From contig CAIWHK010000028.1 of the NCBI GenBank assembly GCA_903912525.1, positions 79,625 through 143,624 on the forward strand: a DNA stretch of 64,000 nt. The letters run 5' to 3'. The translations under genes and the position numbers were made by a program. The notes beneath the pieces were generated by a model that worked only from the letters and a program-made list of their open reading frames with translations, was not told where the DNA came from and did not search any database. This DNA comes from an uncultured bacterium. GTDB taxonomy: Bacteria > Krumholzibacteriota > Krumholzibacteriia > LZORAL124-64-63. This document shows, piece by piece, positions 48,433 through 63,748 of this stretch (its first letter is position 1; every line of letters begins with the position of its first letter).

Positions 48433-49020
48433 CTAGCGGAAGATGCTCTTCACCTGGCCCCAAGTCGTGGGTTGCTCCGCCACGGGCGTCGCGCCGTTGA
48501 TGACGGCGACCGGCGACGACGCCGACCCCGACGCGGGACTCAGTGACACCCCGCTCCCTGAGACCGACATGTTGAGTCCCTCCACATACAGCCACGTCGG
48601 CCCGCCTGACTCGTAGAGGCCCACGTAGACGTTCGCGAGGATGAGCGTGTCGGTGACCGGAAACGGCGTCGAGACCCACACGCGGAAGGACCAATGCTGC
48701 TCGCCCATCATGTTGTCCGCGATGTTCTGCCCCGCGGTGGCCATGCCGACGATGTTCCCGTAGGCGCCGCTCGTGCGGATGTCGCCCTCCCAGTAACTGA
48801 TCAGGCCTGCGAGCGAGACGTGCCGCGCGATCAGCCAGGCGCGCACCTCCACGGGATGCTCGGGCGTCGGCGCGGCGGAGGGCGTCGCGATTTCCGTGGC
48901 CGCCTGGTCGAAGTAGATGCCGACTGAGTTGGGGCCGGGGTCGGGTTGGGCGAAGAGGGCGGCGGGCAGGAACGCCAACGCCAATGCCGTCGCGAGCGCA
49001 GCATGCAGTGTCATCTTCAT
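48433..49020 (-). CDS. Secreted hypothetical protein
   Basis: 195 residues with a clear signal peptide (MKMTLHAALATALALAFLPAALFAQ). The mature part begins PDPGPNSVGIYFDQAATEIATP and appears beta-rich (HWSFRVWVSTPFPVTDTLILANVYVGLYESG), ending in WGQVKSIFR. It looks like a small extracellular or periplasmic beta-sandwich protein, but I do not recognise a named family. The ATG at 49020 with GGAG upstream is the start; the track extends it 57 residues too far. Convergent with the membrane glycosyltransferase, 4 bases apart. Confidence 0.65.
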   Translation of the reverse strand: MKMTLHAALATALALAFLPAALFAQPDPGPNSVGIYFDQAATEIATPSAAPTPEHPVEVRAWLIARHVSLAGLISYWEGDIRTSGAYGNIVGMATAGQNIADNMMGEQHWSFRVWVSTPFPVTDTLILANVYVGLYESGGPTWLYVEGLNMSVSGSGVSLSPASGSASSPVAVINGATPVAEQPTTWGQVKSIFR

Positions 49021-49422
49021 GGCGCGACTCCGTCCGTTACTGTCGACAGGTAAGGCAAGTTCTATCAGATGGAGCATCAGCGAGCAAGAGGCGGAACGTA
49101 GGTGGCACGGGGCGACTTGTGCCGGCGCAAGTTGCCGGTGGAAAGCGCGAGAATCGATCATGAGGCTGATCCATCTTGATGGTACCTCCAAACAGCAGGT
49201 AGCGGAACTGGACTTGACTCGAGATTCGAGCAGTGGATATGCTCATTCTGCGCCTGAAAGAGGTTCCGCTTGGTGGGGTATTGATTTCCTGATGCCCACG
49301 ATTATGAGGCGCCTTGCATGATTTCGTACCCCTTCTCTTGGGATCCGCAGATGGCTTGCGCCCAAGCGGAATCCAAAGGACCATGGCCGATGTATGCAGC
49401 CAGAAAGCTAAAGGAGTCATCG
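49021..49422. other. 402-base intergenic region at the island edge
   Basis: Holds the leader of the secreted protein, one copy of the ACTTGTGCCGGCGCAAGT palindrome (49115-49132), and a promoter-like TTGACT (49214) with an 18-base spacer and TATGCT (49238) for the lipoprotein. A small CTCGA-GAT-TCGAG inverted repeat lies between these boxes. Base composition drops here. Confidence 0.5.
49115..49132. repeat. 18-bp palindromic element, intergenic copy
   Basis: ACTTGTGCCGGCGCAAGT, one base from the perfect palindrome ACTTGCGCCGGCGCAAGT that occurs four times (core conserved) inside the DUF512 gene at 62.8-63.0 kb. Confidence 0.8.
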
Positions 49423-49881
49423 ATGAGGAAATCCGGATTGTTGCTTGTCATATTGGCAGTCGCATGTGCGGGCTGTGCGACCGCTCCTGCCCCGAGAACG
49501 ATTATCAACGCATTCAGCTTCAGTACAAGTCTCGACACCGTCTGGTCTGCCACGGTCGAGACTTTTGCCGAATTGAACCTGCCAATTGATAACATGGAAA
49601 AAGACTCCGGACTGATCACAACCGATTGGATAAATTTTACGGGCACGGGAAATAAGGAATGGTGTGACTGTGGCGGCCTGGGGATTGCCGTCGAGAACTC
49701 GCGGCGCGGCAAATTCAACGTTTTCGTCAAGCAGACTGGCGCCACGGTTTCGGTCCGGGTCAATTGCCAATTCCAACAGGTGGCCAGCCTCGGTGGTACT
49801 GTCGTCAATCGCGAGTGTGTTTCCACGGGATCGCTGGAATCGCGCATCAATAGCTTGATTGCGAGCAAGGTCGGGAATTAG
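49423..49881 (+). CDS. Hypothetical lipoprotein
   Basis: 152 residues. The signal MRKSGLLLVILAVACAGC ends in a lipobox cysteine. The mature domain (NAFSFSTSLDTVWSATVETFAELNLPIDNMEKDSGLITTDW) resembles small outer-membrane lipoproteins with a BamC- or DUF-type alpha/beta fold, but no family is secure. The ATG at 49423 has AAAGGAG upstream; the track start is 105 bases too early. Base composition is lower in GC than the flanking chromosome, in keeping with the accessory patch. Confidence 0.7.
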   Translation: MRKSGLLLVILAVACAGCATAPAPRTIINAFSFSTSLDTVWSATVETFAELNLPIDNMEKDSGLITTDWINFTGTGNKEWCDCGGLGIAVENSRRGKFNVFVKQTGATVSVRVNCQFQQVASLGGTVVNRECVSTGSLESRINSLIASKVGN

Positions 49882-50234
49882 CGCGATTCGATGCGGAGCG
49901 AATTTGGGCGCGGATGCACTGTGGTCCGTGCCCCACTTTTGTTCAGCGCACGAGGATCGTGCGCAGTCGTCAATTGCGCGGCGGTTCTGAATAGCGCTTG
50001 GCACAGAATGTCGGGTTCCTGATGCCGGTATTCCTGCTTAATGCCTCGGACTCTTGGGGGTTAGAACTGGCTTGAAGCAAGTTGCCTGCGCACCTATGGT
50101 TTGCGAAAGCTCGGCTCGGAGAATTGTCTGCGGCTTCAGGGAGCGTCAAAAGCCCATTTTGGGGGTGATTGACCCCTGTTGACCGGAGCGGATATTGGTT
50201 CTAAGCTTGAACCGAGTATCAGCCTTTTTGGGTC
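49882..50234. other. 353-base intergenic region in the accessory patch
   Basis: No convincing ORF. Its last 60 bases hold the K+ channel promoter and a G-run/C-run inverted segment (GGGGGTGATTGACCCC) that may be the remnant of an insertion-sequence end; no transposase is visible. Confidence 0.35.
50179..50207 (+). promoter_or_regulatory. Promoter of the K+ channel gene
   Basis: TTGACC (50179-50184), 17-base spacer, TAAGCT (50202-50207). Confidence 0.5.
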
Positions 50235-51050
50235 TTGTCGCACGAGAATCTGTCATTCATGGGGGCAAGCGACGACATGACAAGCCGCGAAAATCAAATT
50301 GCAAGTGACTCGCAAAGCGCGGTTTATATGGTCTATATACTTGCAATCAGTGTTCTCAGTCTCGTCTTTCTCGCCGCGGGAGTCATTCTGGACGGCAATT
50401 CCGACGTCGCTAGTATCTTGAACGTCGCGGATACAGCGCTCTGCGCCCTCTTCTTCATTGACTTCGTGATCACGCTTACGCGCAGCAAAAGCAAACGCCA
50501 GTATTTGGCGACATGGGGTTGGCTCGATTTGGTCTCGAGCCTGCCCATGGTTCCAGCACTCAGAATTGGGCGCCTGGCACGCGTCGTCCGTGTTGTTCGT
50601 GTGCTTCGCGGGATTCGGTCCGTACGAGTGCTGTCGTCGTTCTTCTTGGAAAGGCGTGCCCAAAACACCGTCGTTGCGGCGGTATTGGTGACCATTCTCT
50701 TGATGGTGTTTGGGAGTATTGCCATCCTGTCATTCGAGACTGGGCCGGATGCAAACATTAAGGGCCCAGAGGACGCTCTGTGGTGGTCGGCGGTCACCCT
50801 TACCACTGTCGGGTATGGAGACCGTTTTCCCGTCACCACCGAAGGCCGCGCCGTGGCGGTGCTATTGATGGTGGCCGGCGTAGGACTATTTGGAGCGCTA
50901 TCGGGGTTCATCGCGTCATGGTTCCTAACTCCAAGCGGCCAGCATCAGGATGATGAGATCTCCCAGCTTAGGTCCGAGATCGGTGCAATTCGTGAGATGC
51001 TGGTTGAGCAGCAAGCGAGCGAATCTGGCCGCGGCGAGGGGAATGCCTAA
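50235..51050 (+). CDS. Voltage-gated potassium channel (Kv-type, six transmembrane)
   Basis: About 271 residues. A six-helix topology is visible: S1 near VYMVYILAISVLSLVFLAAG, S2-S3, an S4 voltage sensor with Arg at every third position (RIGRLARVVRVVRVLRGIR), S5, then the pore loop with the selectivity filter TLTTVGYGD and S6 (AVLLMVAGVGLFGALSGF). A charged C-terminal coiled coil (EISQLRSEIGAIREMLVEQ) may tetramerise the channel. The start is uncertain: TTG 50235, ATG 50259 (MGASDDM) or ATG 50277. Located in the lower-GC patch next to a nuclease-like gene. Confidence 0.88.
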   Translation: MSHENLSFMGASDDMTSRENQIASDSQSAVYMVYILAISVLSLVFLAAGVILDGNSDVASILNVADTALCALFFIDFVITLTRSKSKRQYLATWGWLDLVSSLPMVPALRIGRLARVVRVVRVLRGIRSVRVLSSFFLERRAQNTVVAAVLVTILLMVFGSIAILSFETGPDANIKGPEDALWWSAVTLTTVGYGDRFPVTTEGRAVAVLLMVAGVGLFGALSGFIASWFLTPSGQHQDDEISQLRSEIGAIREMLVEQQASESGRGEGNA

Positions 51051-51108
51051 CCTCAGTTTGCGGCAGACGGCACGGCCCTTGACGACCGCGACCATCTGCT
51101 ACAAGCTC

Positions 51109-51117
51109 TGGTATTAT
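51109..51117 (+). promoter_or_regulatory. Extended -10 promoter of the HsdR-N gene
   Basis: TGGTATTAT, a TGn-extended -10 with no strong -35, 40 bases before the ATG; AGGAGG follows at 51142. Confidence 0.45.
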
Positions 51118-51156
51118 TGCCGGTGTGAACATGATTCCTGCAGGAGGCACAGAAAG

Positions 51157-51966
51157 ATGGCGTTGCCGAAGAAACTCGAAGAACGCATTAGCGGCGGGCT
51201 CAAGCGGTTTCAGCCGATTTTGAGCGCAGCCAAAGCGCGCGATGTGAATGAATCGGATACGGTGGTGATCATCACTGACGTTCTGCAGGACGTCTTTGGC
51301 TACGACAAGTACTCGGACATCACTTCCGAGCACATGATCCGAGGTACGTTCTGCGATCTCGCGATCAAGATCGATGGCAGCCTCGCACTGCTGATCGAGG
51401 CGAAGGCCATTGGCCTTGACCTCAAGGAGCAGTTTGTAAAGCAGGCAGTGGACTATGCGGCCAATCAGGGCGTCGAATGGGTAGCGCTGACCAACGGTGT
51501 TGTATGGCGCGTGTATCGAGTGGCATTCAAGAAGCCAATCGAGCATGAGCTGGTTGTGGAATTCGACCTGCTGACGATGAATTGTCGGAAGGCTGATGAC
51601 CTGGAAGTGCTGGCGTTGTTGTCAAAAGAGGGCTGGCTGAAGGCTCGCTTGGGCGATTACTACACGCAAAAGCAAGCTCTCAATCGATTCACGTTAGCGG
51701 CCGTCCTGTTGAGCGACACGGTCCTTGAAGTGACCCGGCGCGAGGTGCGGCGGCTTGCGCCCGAAGTGCGGGTGGATGTGGACGGATTGCGGCAGGCGCT
51801 ACTTACCGAGGTTTTCAAGCGCGAAGTTGTCGAAGGCGAAAAAGCCGATATGGCGCGGAAGCAAGTCGCAAAGGCTTCCGGTCGGGCGCTGCGGGCCGTG
51901 AAACCGGCTGAAGATAGGGCGCAGGGCAACCTTCCGGAAGATTCATCAAACGAGTCGGGCTCGTAA
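51157..51966 (+). CDS. Solitary HsdR N-terminal-domain (type I restriction-like) protein
   Basis: 269 residues. The region DVLQDVFGYDKYSDITSEHMIRGTFCDLAIKIDGSLALLIEAKA contains the PD-(D/E)xK nuclease-type core of the type I restriction R-subunit N-terminal domain (catalytic Asp in CDLAI, ExK in IEAKA). This is followed by QAVDYAANQGVEWVALTNGVVWRVYRV, also typical. There is no helicase, HsdM or HsdS nearby, so it is not a restriction system by itself. It is commonly a stand-alone domain of unknown role. ATG 51157 with AGGAGG 9 bases upstream; the track start is too early. Confidence 0.85.
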   Translation: MALPKKLEERISGGLKRFQPILSAAKARDVNESDTVVIITDVLQDVFGYDKYSDITSEHMIRGTFCDLAIKIDGSLALLIEAKAIGLDLKEQFVKQAVDYAANQGVEWVALTNGVVWRVYRVAFKKPIEHELVVEFDLLTMNCRKADDLEVLALLSKEGWLKARLGDYYTQKQALNRFTLAAVLLSDTVLEVTRREVRRLAPEVRVDVDGLRQALLTEVFKREVVEGEKADMARKQVAKASGRALRAVKPAEDRAQGNLPEDSSNESGS

Positions 51967-52265
51967 TAGAACTACGGGGCCGAGCGGGATTGCCGAAGCG
52001 ACGGCGTGCTTTGCGTTCTTGAAGAAATGGAAGCAGCCAGCGCTATGCCTGCCGAAGTCCGGCGATTGCCGGCGGGTAGCGGGTCGCCTCTTGTGCCTAA
52101 GTATCTGGCAATCAGGCCCTTACCGACTCCACTGCCGCCAATTCCGGCATGCAGCAGACGGTGGTCGCGTCCGCGAAATATCGGGACGTGCCGCCGTCTA
52201 GATACGGCAGCGACGGAAAAGTGCGTGGCAAAGAAAACCGGCCATTTGAGGCCGGCTTTCTTTTC
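51967..52265. other. Intergenic region between the HsdR-N gene and tRNA-Arg
   Basis: About 300 bases with no ORF supported by a ribosome site. It ends in a hairpin, CCGGCC-ATTTGA-GGCCGG (52238-52255), with T-rich flanks on both strands, so it can end both the HsdR-N and the tRNA-Arg transcripts. Confidence 0.4.
52238..52264. terminator. Bidirectional terminator
   Basis: CCGGCC/GGCCGG stem, loop ATTTGA, then CTTTCTTTT on plus and GTTTTCTTT on minus. Confidence 0.65.
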
Positions 52266-58094: not shown

Positions 58095-58190
58095 CCCGGG
58101 GCGGGTTGACCCGCGGTTGACCCGCGCGGTTTTCGGCAAAAAAAGACGAGCCGCCGACCCCGGCAACTCGTTGCATCTTAAAAAATTAAG

Positions 58191-58267
58191 TGGTCGGGAC
58201 GGCGAGATTTGAACTCGCGACCCCTTGCCCCCCATGCAAGTGCGCTACCGGGCTGCGCTACGTCCCG
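58191..58267 (-). tRNA. tRNA-Pro (anticodon GGG)
   Basis: 77 bases with encoded CCA on the minus strand. Acceptor CGGGACG/CGTCCCG, anticodon loop ATGGGGG in a CTTGC/GCAAG stem. Co-directional with merR upstream. Confidence 0.95.
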
Positions 58268-62092: not shown

Positions 62093-63748
62093 TTAGCCCA
62101 ATTGACGCCAAAAATCAATGAACCCGTCCTCCTCGCCCACGTGGACCCGGTGGGGCTGGCCGGACGTCAGGTCGTCGAAGGTCAGGCCGTCGAGGGTCAG
62201 GCCGTCGGCATTGAAGACCCGCGGCGAGAGAACCACATCGCGGACAGGGGCTTGCGGAAGTTCCAGGAGGGCTTTCCTGAGGTCGCCGCCCGAAAGCAGG
62301 CCGGCCACGGTGACGGAGGCGCCGTAGAAGGTGTTGGGGACGCCGATGATGTCCACTTTGGGCGCTTGGGCTGCCTCGAGGACCGGGGTGAATTCGCGGC
62401 GCCAGGCGGTGGCGGCCAGTTCGCCGGTCAGAACGGTCAGGGGCCTGGTGGGCATGTCCTGGTCCCGGGCGGCCCATTCGAGTTCCTCGCGCCAGGTGTC
62501 CCTGAGGCGGCAGGTCAGGCCGATGGCGTTGTCGATCTGCCAGAACTCGTCATAGTCGTCGGCGGGCGGGAAGGGCCGGCCGGTCTGCAGGAAGAACTCG
62601 TCGCTCAGGTAGACGAAGCCGTAGCCCAGACTTGCGCGGGCCTCTTGCTGCCACGCCGCAACCTGGTCGATGGTGGCGTTGGCCACCTCGGGCGTGACCG
62701 GGTCCAGCTTGGTGAGGCCTTCACGGTGGTTGCTCAGGCCGACCGGGACGATGGCCAGCGAGCGGATGCCGCCGATGCGGGGTTCGCCGTCGTCATCCGG
62801 TTGCGCCGGCGCAAGTCCGGTGAGGTCGTCGTCTTCGTCTGTGACCGCGAATGCGGGCTCGCCGCAGGGCAGTTGCGCCGGCGCAAGTATCCCGAATTCG
62901 TTATTTGTGGCGCAAGTCGTGGCGGCGCCCGGGCGCACTTGCGCCGGCGCAAGTGGTTGATCGTCGCCGTTCAATTCGCTGTCGCGCGCGCCGTCGACTT
63001 GCGCCGGCGCAAGTGGTTGATCGTCGCCGTTCAGTTCGTCGGCGTCCTCCCCCATCCCGCCCTCTTCATATCCGTGCCCGCGGCGGCTGACGGCCGTGAA
63101 GGCGGCTTCATCATCATCCTTGGGCGCGGCCAGCGTGAGCAGGTCGCGGAAGGTCTTCTCCAGGATCAGGCCCTCGTTCCAGCCCGGGCACAGGACGACC
63201 TGCGTGTGGATCTCGATGCCGGCTTCAACCAGTTGCTTAAGGATGACCATCACGTCGAAGCGGCGCTTGATCCCCAGCATGCGCGTGCGCACGTCGATGT
63301 CGGTGGCGTGCACCGAGACGTACAGCGGCGACAGGCGCTGGCGGATGATGCGCTCGAGGCCGCGGCGGCCGAGGCTGGTCAGCGTGATGTAGTTGCCGTA
63401 GAGGAAGCTGAAGCGGTAGTCCTCGTCCTTCACGTAGATCGGCTCGCGCATCCCCTTGGGATTCTGGTCGATGAAGCAGAAGACGCAGTCGCAGGCGCAG
63501 GTCTTGAACTCCATCGGCGCGAAGCACTCGGTCACGGCGTGGATGTCGCCCGGGTCAAGGCGCACGACGAGTTCGCCGCCGTCGGCGCGGCGGATGCCGA
63601 GCGCGGTGGTGCTCTCCTCGGGCGCGTAGTAGTAGAGGTCGAGGATGTCCTCGAGGGGGCGGCCGTCGATGGTGGCCACGGCGTCGCCGGGCCGCCAGTC
63701 GTGCAGGCGGTCCAGGGGCGGCGGGAAGGGGCGCGTCAGTGGGATCAT
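62093..63748 (-). CDS. DUF512/radical SAM-like Fe-S oxidoreductase with embedded palindromic repeats
   Basis: 551 residues. An N-terminal PDZ-like domain (DWRPGDAVATIDGRPLEDILDL) precedes a cysteine cluster CACDCVFCFIDQNPKGM (C84-x3-C88-x2-C91), the radical SAM-type Fe-S motif of the DUF512 family. The core (YGNYITLTSLGRRGLERIIRQRLSPLYVSVHATD) and C-terminal DUF512 (VLTGELAATAWRREFTPVL) are intact. Residues about 208-327 form an acidic insert between DLLTLA and GIRSLAIVPVG that carries LAPAQ four times, each from the palindrome TTGCGCCGGCGCAA. The order DUF512-der-plsY-gpsA is conserved elsewhere. ATG start without a strong ribosome site. Confidence 0.9.
   Translation of the reverse strand: MIPLTRPFPPPLDRLHDWRPGDAVATIDGRPLEDILDLYYYAPEESTTALGIRRADGGELVVRLDPGDIHAVTECFAPMEFKTCACDCVFCFIDQNPKGMREPIYVKDEDYRFSFLYGNYITLTSLGRRGLERIIRQRLSPLYVSVHATDIDVRTRMLGIKRRFDVMVILKQLVEAGIEIHTQVVLCPGWNEGLILEKTFRDLLTLAAPKDDDEAAFTAVSRRGHGYEEGGMGEDADELNGDDQPLAPAQVDGARDSELNGDDQPLAPAQVRPGAATTCATNNEFGILAPAQLPCGEPAFAVTDEDDDLTGLAPAQPDDDGEPRIGGIRSLAIVPVGLSNHREGLTKLDPVTPEVANATIDQVAAWQQEARASLGYGFVYLSDEFFLQTGRPFPPADDYDEFWQIDNAIGLTCRLRDTWREELEWAARDQDMPTRPLTVLTGELAATAWRREFTPVLEAAQAPKVDIIGVPNTFYGASVTVAGLLSGGDLRKALLELPQAPVRDVVLSPRVFNADGLTLDGLTFDDLTSGQPHRVHVGEEDGFIDFWRQLG
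62801..62814. repeat. Palindromic element copy 1 in the DUF512 gene
   Basis: TTGCGCCGGCGCAA, read as LAPAQ on the minus strand. Confidence 0.85.
62873..62886. repeat. Palindromic element copy 2 in the DUF512 gene
   Basis: TTGCGCCGGCGCAA, read as LAPAQ. Confidence 0.85.
62937..62954. repeat. Palindromic element copy 3 in the DUF512 gene
   Basis: Full 18-bp ACTTGCGCCGGCGCAAGT, read as LAPAQ; unit of a 60-bp tandem duplication with copy 4. Confidence 0.9.
62997..63014. repeat. Palindromic element copy 4 in the DUF512 gene
   Basis: Full 18-bp ACTTGCGCCGGCGCAAGT, 60 bases from copy 3 (ELNGDDQPLAPAQ repeated at 20-residue spacing). Confidence 0.9.

Follow-up and report, generated by a model that had tools for sequence, protein, structure and literature searches.

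An iterated, genus-restricted palindrome and a multi-copy HTH-HNH nuclease family as its candidate reader

The locus and its palindromes

The window, i.e. the whole stretch of DNA analysed (64,000 nucleotides), contains several copies of a short palindrome, and one of them, ACTTGTGCCGGCGCAAGT, lies inside a 402-bp gap with two divergent genes on its sides (Table 1). A check of the window places this copy exactly where the original prediction had put it, between the gene of a secreted protein and that of a lipoprotein, the latter having a weak NlpB/DapX match in Pfam that stays under the curated cut-off. The accompanying claim that it differs by one base from the copies within the Radical-SAM/DUF512 gene is true of those starting at 62937 and 62997, while the copy at 62871 differs by two bases and the one at 62799 by three. 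When up to three mismatches are allowed, the window holds 10 matches on the two strands together, whereas dinucleotide-shuffled sequence would give 0.07.

The segment that contains the copy at 49115 is specific to the lineage: at the corresponding place the sister species G001 has a different segment of 1.6 kb, in which a single palindrome lies 51 bp short of the right edge. The DUF512 gene also differs between species, since its 126-bp extra segment is absent from G001 and G003, each of which has a single palindrome at that point, and the linker with the palindromes is missing in a related genus that has few copies and no expansion. Within the extra segment, GGTTGATCGTCGCCGTTCARTTCG is tandemly duplicated beside two of the DUF512 palindromes (62939-63060). 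Elsewhere in the window (58104-58235), G001 is longer than this genome by about 5.4 kb, and this additional DNA is devoid of palindromes.

Table 1. Genes, palindrome copies and species-specific segments discussed here (window coordinates)
Feature	Position	Strand	Basis
Secreted-protein gene, left of the copy at 49115; signal-peptide-like start at about 49020, no Pfam match	48433..49020	-	
Lineage-specific segment containing the copy at 49115, 3.7 kb	48584..52257	.	comparison with sister species G001
Copy ACTTGTGCCGGCGCAAGT of the iterated palindrome, with a single base different from the consensus core TTGCGCCGGCGCAA	49115..49132	.	window sequence and comparison with G001
Lipoprotein gene, right of the copy at 49115; ATG at 49423, lipobox ACAGC	49423..49881	+	
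Radical-SAM/DUF512 gene; its palindromes are LAPAQ codons in a linker	62093..63748	-	
GGTTGCGCCGGCGCAAGT, palindrome inside the DUF512 gene, with a core also present in two sister species	62799..62816	.	
AGTTGCGCCGGCGCAAGT, palindrome inside the DUF512 gene, at the left-hand junction of this genome's extra segment	62871..62888	.	
Extra segment, 126 bp, in-frame, spanning exactly palindrome to palindrome	62873..62998	.	sister comparison
ACTTGCGCCGGCGCAAGT, palindrome inside the DUF512 gene and within the extra segment	62937..62954	.	
ACTTGCGCCGGCGCAAGT, palindrome inside the DUF512 gene, at the right-hand junction of that segment	62997..63014	.	

Genome-wide copy number and anatomy of the site

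The core TTGYGCCGGCRCAA has 303 copies in the 4.29-Mb genome (about one per 14 kb), against one for the reversed control, and for the perfect 14-mer 224 strand-matches were counted in 1.15 Mb of this genome where a third-order Markov model predicts 0.09. Four species of the genus have 303, 232, 153 and 189 copies of the core and the 54 other relatives 0-6, and when the 18-mer was sought across some 85,000 species genomes, the matches listed came mainly from LJ_bin-5039, LaPlata-b_bin-2430 and bin_118, which are sister bins. Mapping the genomic copies has therefore yielded far more than the two loci from which the original prediction was made, and its description of an iterated short palindrome, as opposed to an accident of codon usage, is borne out by their number, by their mainly intergenic position and by their confinement to one genus. 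Specifically, although 89% of bases are coding, 97 of 114 sampled copies (~85%) lie outside called genes and 17 inside, these fractions being approximate as genes were called with a simple hexamer caller. By the same approximate gene calls, the 3′ ends of adjacent genes are often close to a palindrome (42/80 within 50 bp, null 23%), and gene starts are avoided (4/96 within 50 bp, null 19%).

The repeat unit is 18 bp long, A[C/G]TTGCGCCGGCGCAA[G/C]T, and has sharp edges. Among the cores sampled in 423 kb, 65 are perfect, five have one mismatch and three have two, and neither half-sites nor alternative spacings are enriched. Alignment of the copies reveals no conserved bases past -2/+2 and nothing shared between flanks beyond 2 bp, which speaks against new sites having arisen from larger pieces that were simply copied. 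Positions -1/+1 vary independently of each other (AC/GT in 36 copies, AG/GT in 11, AC/CT in 7), so that each half-site is retained and the pairing of a stem is not, in keeping with a dimer that reads the two halves.

Some places have a more complex repeat structure. At L109 (6559-6686) and L051 (5398-5513) the palindrome forms tandem arrays with similar spacers, at 38-bp and 34-bp spacing respectively, which recall iterated binding-site arrays. Another locus, L113 (726-2604), has internal repeats and is about 62-68% like L077 in several registers.

Constraint, decay and rearrangement

The palindrome is under constraint at the DNA level. When 62 site pairs (nuclease paralogues included) were aligned between this genome and sister species, 45 of 868 core positions had changed, against 846 of 4130 (~20%) in the flanks; the core changes fall mostly in pairs where the site is lost or missing on one side, and where both sides have kept it the cores usually show no difference. 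A further example is the LAPAQ site in the nuclease genes described below: all eight copies compared have the same 14 bases there, while their flanks diverge by 7-33%. LAPAQ can be written in hundreds of ways and yet its codons are fixed, so it is the DNA sequence itself that is constrained.

The original prediction had also raised the questions of whether copies differ between close relatives and whether they are flanked by duplications. They do differ: in the roughly half a dozen conserved gaps compared in which a site is present in one genome and absent from the other, orthologous sites have been lost by point decay or partial deletion, and none of these intervals shows a clean 18-bp insertion or a target duplication. 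An intact Y1 transposase (PF01797, RAYT-type) is likewise absent from G000, G001 and G003. The suggestion that the palindrome is mobile is therefore not upheld, as flanks are not shared, sites are inherited and decay, and the transposase is lacking. A Y1 transposase was dropped as a partner of the palindrome, the only trace of one found in the genus being a broken fragment with an in-frame stop (L201, at 8141-8308 of contig C311 of G002).

Palindrome sites are linked to rearrangement, as an association and not as a cause. Among gaps of at least 60 bp on both sides, gene order is broken between G000 and G001 at 14 of the 21 that bear a palindrome and at 9 of the 66 that do not (odds ratio 12.7, p=7e-6, length-controlled), with the proviso that some G001 stretches were chosen for holding palindromes and that variable regions may attract both features. 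In one case (L038, 2600-3604), a nuclease gene of G001 is truncated at a palindrome inside the HNH domain, and the orthologue in G000 is complete.

A family of HNH nuclease genes with palindromes of their own

Several palindromes fall inside the members of a repeated gene family that encodes an HNH nuclease (PF01844, 5e-11). G000 has about 12 gene matches to it, and relatives have as many as 27. That the gene family is specific to the genus was rejected, since most of the wider family has several copies of it. All 12 g1 nuclease loci examined have palindromes in or beside the gene, and in other genera the orthologous gene has a different perfect palindrome, for instance TTCCCCCGGGGGAA, ACCCGCCGGCGGGT, TTTACACGTGTAAA or AGTCCAGACGTCTGGACT, in the linker that precedes the zinc knuckle. 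More specifically, 17 of 27 genes have a perfect palindrome of at least 14 bp there, at a distance of 10-17 codons ahead of the knuckle, against 1 of 84 windows in the N-domain; these genes are related, include one locus twice and are hence not independent. For most of the longer linker palindromes, synonymous-codon shuffles rarely reach the length observed. Some copies of the gene (L206, L224, L257, L259 and L267) have no linker palindrome, and a nuclease gene of G022 (L266) has a second palindrome of 24 bp, AAAAGTCTAGCCGGCTAGACTTTT, near residue 126. Searches for homologues of the nuclease on plasmids returned only HNH-domain matches, such as IscB and a Vsr-annotated gene, and searches of defence libraries HNH-domain similarity only.

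Palindromes read from nuclease genes were then counted across 58 genomes, and each of those looked for (CCCCCCGGGGGG, TACACGTGTA, TCCAGACGTCTGGA and ACCCGCCGGCGGGT) turned out to be iterated chiefly in its own lineage. The first of these reaches 11-66 copies in G004, G006, G010, G017, G019, G023, G027, G029 and others (control 0-1), lineages with this palindrome in their nuclease genes. The copies sampled in G004 and G010 lie mostly between genes, and their arms extend to 14-22 bp. TACACGTGTA has 55 copies in G018 and 22 in G049, the genomes from which it was taken, and five in G045, whose nuclease gene at C281 was found to contain it. ACCCGCCGGCGGGT has 11 copies in G027, nine in G019 and four in G012, and TCCASACGTSTGGA has 11 in G005, three in G022, one each in G013 and G018 and none in the other 54. 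There are also palindromes that occur only once in a genome and do so inside a nuclease gene, namely ACCCGCCGGCGGGT in G010 (L254) and TCCACACGTGTGGA in G013 (L265), and one nuclease copy carries GGGGGGCCCCCC, of which G017 has a single copy genome-wide against 40 of CCCCCCGGGGGG. From the counts by lineage it follows that the pairing of a nuclease gene with an iterated palindrome recurs with different sequences.

Remote likeness of the putative DNA-binding domain to ParB and Noc

Structure prediction points to a remote resemblance between the N-terminal, DUF222-type part of the nuclease and the helix-turn-helix of ParB/Noc. For the model of the DNA-binding part (pLDDT 82), the first 25 structural matches are all ParB/Noc DNA-binding domains, with probabilities up to 1.00 and, in the case of the Noc domain on its site, a TM-score of 0.71, although the Foldseek E-values are weak (0.13 and above for the domain model, 0.06 at best for the full-length model) and none reaches 0.001. 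Pfam recognizes DUF222 in 16 of 20 N-domains (best 5.9e-7) and, weakly, HTH_ParB in 8 (best 4.7e-4), the g1 query, taken singly, falling under the DUF222 cut-off. The protein begins about 30 residues before the helical domain and Pfam finds no N-terminal CTPase domain in it, and an HMM search with the N-domain profile against PDB sequences gave only a weak, unrelated EnvZ match. Covariation between recognition helix and site is apparent by eye but not significant at the first position tested (p=0.14), and is given no weight here.

Alternative explanations

A palindrome that is dispersed, constrained and of ParB/Noc-like size might be a chromosome-organisation or methylation site of the Noc/parS or HIP1 kind, read by some other protein and without a functional tie to the HNH genes. 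HIP1 provides a precedent, as an iterated palindrome linked to methyltransferases (PMC4390886), but lineage-specific palindromes at one linker of the nuclease genes would be left unexplained where the genome has very few copies, and this explanation is unlikely. A little less credible still is a mobile palindromic mini-element, similar to REP, MITEs or the Rickettsia palindromic elements, for which nuclease genes would be frequent targets. The many copies, their presence both in gaps and in coding linkers and their occurrence at rearranged places would all suit such an element; the unshared flanks past 2 bp, the lack of clean insertions or target duplications in the intervals compared, the decay of orthologous sites by point mutation or partial deletion and the lack of an intact Y1 transposase speak against it, as does the fact that the same linker position holds different palindromes in different genera.

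The closeness of copies to stop codons and their distance from gene starts could also be due to an RNA hairpin at transcript ends, acting as a terminator or 3′ stabiliser, and in several other genera the outer arms vary in a compensatory manner, just as a hairpin would predict. In the genus itself, however, many copies have a mismatched outermost pair (AG/GT, AC/CT), the would-be loop CCGG is invariant, and copies inside open reading frames have fixed synonymous codons, which makes a hairpin improbable; an extended hairpin or terminator was rejected, since pairing past ±2 is near background and downstream T is not enriched. Least credible is a DNA-uptake sequence, which would likewise be a short, genus-specific and mainly intergenic repeat. 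The density of the palindrome is low for that function, near-matches are rare, the palindrome is perfect and the link to the nuclease would have no account, so that an uptake role can be regarded as very improbable.

A candidate enzyme-and-site system

The palindrome is probably the site of the ParB/Noc-like HTH-HNH nuclease family, a reading based on comparison of sequences, namely on the copies and their constraint, on the palindromes in and beside nuclease genes and on the way in which the type of palindrome tracks the lineage of the nuclease. On this reading the palindrome would be a double-stranded recognition site with the half-site A[C/g]TTGCGCC, at about 300 per genome in the genus, and its likeliest reader would be the multi-copy nuclease with its N-terminal ParB/Noc-like HTH (DUF222-type) and C-terminal HNH domain. 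A dimer may use its HTH to bind the palindrome, and its HNH domain may nick or cut at or near it, which would turn such sites into recurrent points of repair and rearrangement. Function or a homing-like drive would then maintain both the sites and the copies of the nuclease. The copy at 49115 is then best read as one slightly decayed site of the putative nuclease, in a segment that differs between species. Against the nuclease reading counts the fact that an enzyme whose own chromosome offers it 300 targets would need some form of restraint. Further points against it are the remoteness of the ParB likeness, the nuclease copies that have no linker palindrome, the single genomic copy of GGGGGGCCCCCC in G017, the compensatory outer arms in several genera and the intact palindromes in the nuclease genes, which a homing endonuclease would not normally keep.

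More tentatively, the HTH-HNH nucleases and the lineage-specific palindromes could together be an undescribed self-propagating system of enzyme and site, in which every nuclease lineage would have its recognition palindrome within its coding sequence, would seed or maintain tens to hundreds of genomic copies of it and would remodel gene order there. If so, many DUF222-HNH proteins elsewhere may act alike. In the literature covered (mostly titles and abstracts, with few subscription journals), no report of such a nuclease paired with a palindrome was found. Iterated bacterial palindromes usually have no known reader, and here comparative data name a candidate enzyme, for which the existence of several lineages with different cognate sites makes recognition directly testable. 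If the pairing is true, DUF222-HNH proteins, which have so far only been called repetitive in the literature found, would gain a function, and the pairing would illustrate the coupling of a ParB/Noc-type reader to a nuclease, with a specificity that differs between genera.

Comparison with known systems

In layout the candidate system is like REP/RAYT and in its proposed recognition like ParB/Noc, and it falls under the definition of neither. REP elements are palindromes dispersed mostly between genes, with matching sequences beside the genes for a family of enzymes, and a similar arrangement is seen here; the differences are that an intact Y1 transposase is lacking, that the palindrome is a perfect one of 18 bp without an asymmetric guide tetranucleotide, and that the enzyme is an HTH-HNH protein. 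HNH homing endonucleases are similar in that their genes multiply in genomes, but normally there is no intact target in the gene of such an enzyme, whereas here intact palindromes are found inside and beside it, a contrast that holds if the palindrome is the target.

The HIP1 palindrome of cyanobacteria, tied to methyltransferases (PMC4390886), is similarly short, perfect, highly iterated and restricted to a lineage. Its octamer, GCGATCGC, is very dense, whereas the core TTGCGCCGGCGCAA is far sparser and mostly intergenic, and the candidate partner is a nuclease instead of a methyltransferase. The REP13E12/DUF222-HNH genes of mycobacteria, a repeated gene family that has been called a repetitive element (PMC10589994), share the order of DUF222 followed by HNH with the family studied here (assigned by Pfam); this comparison is by description only, and a link to a palindrome has no mention there.

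Finally, the sites of ParB and Noc, parS (TGTTTCACGTGAAACA) and NBS (TATTTCCCGGGAAATA), are palindromes of 14-16 bp, and the specificities of the two proteins differ by four residues (PMC7383237). The present system has a perfect palindrome in that size range as well, scattered over the chromosome as NBS is, and would resemble them in a putative HTH fold of the dimer type. What sets the present family apart is that an HNH nuclease replaces the CTPase module, that the gene is multi-copy and that the presumed site lies inside the gene itself.
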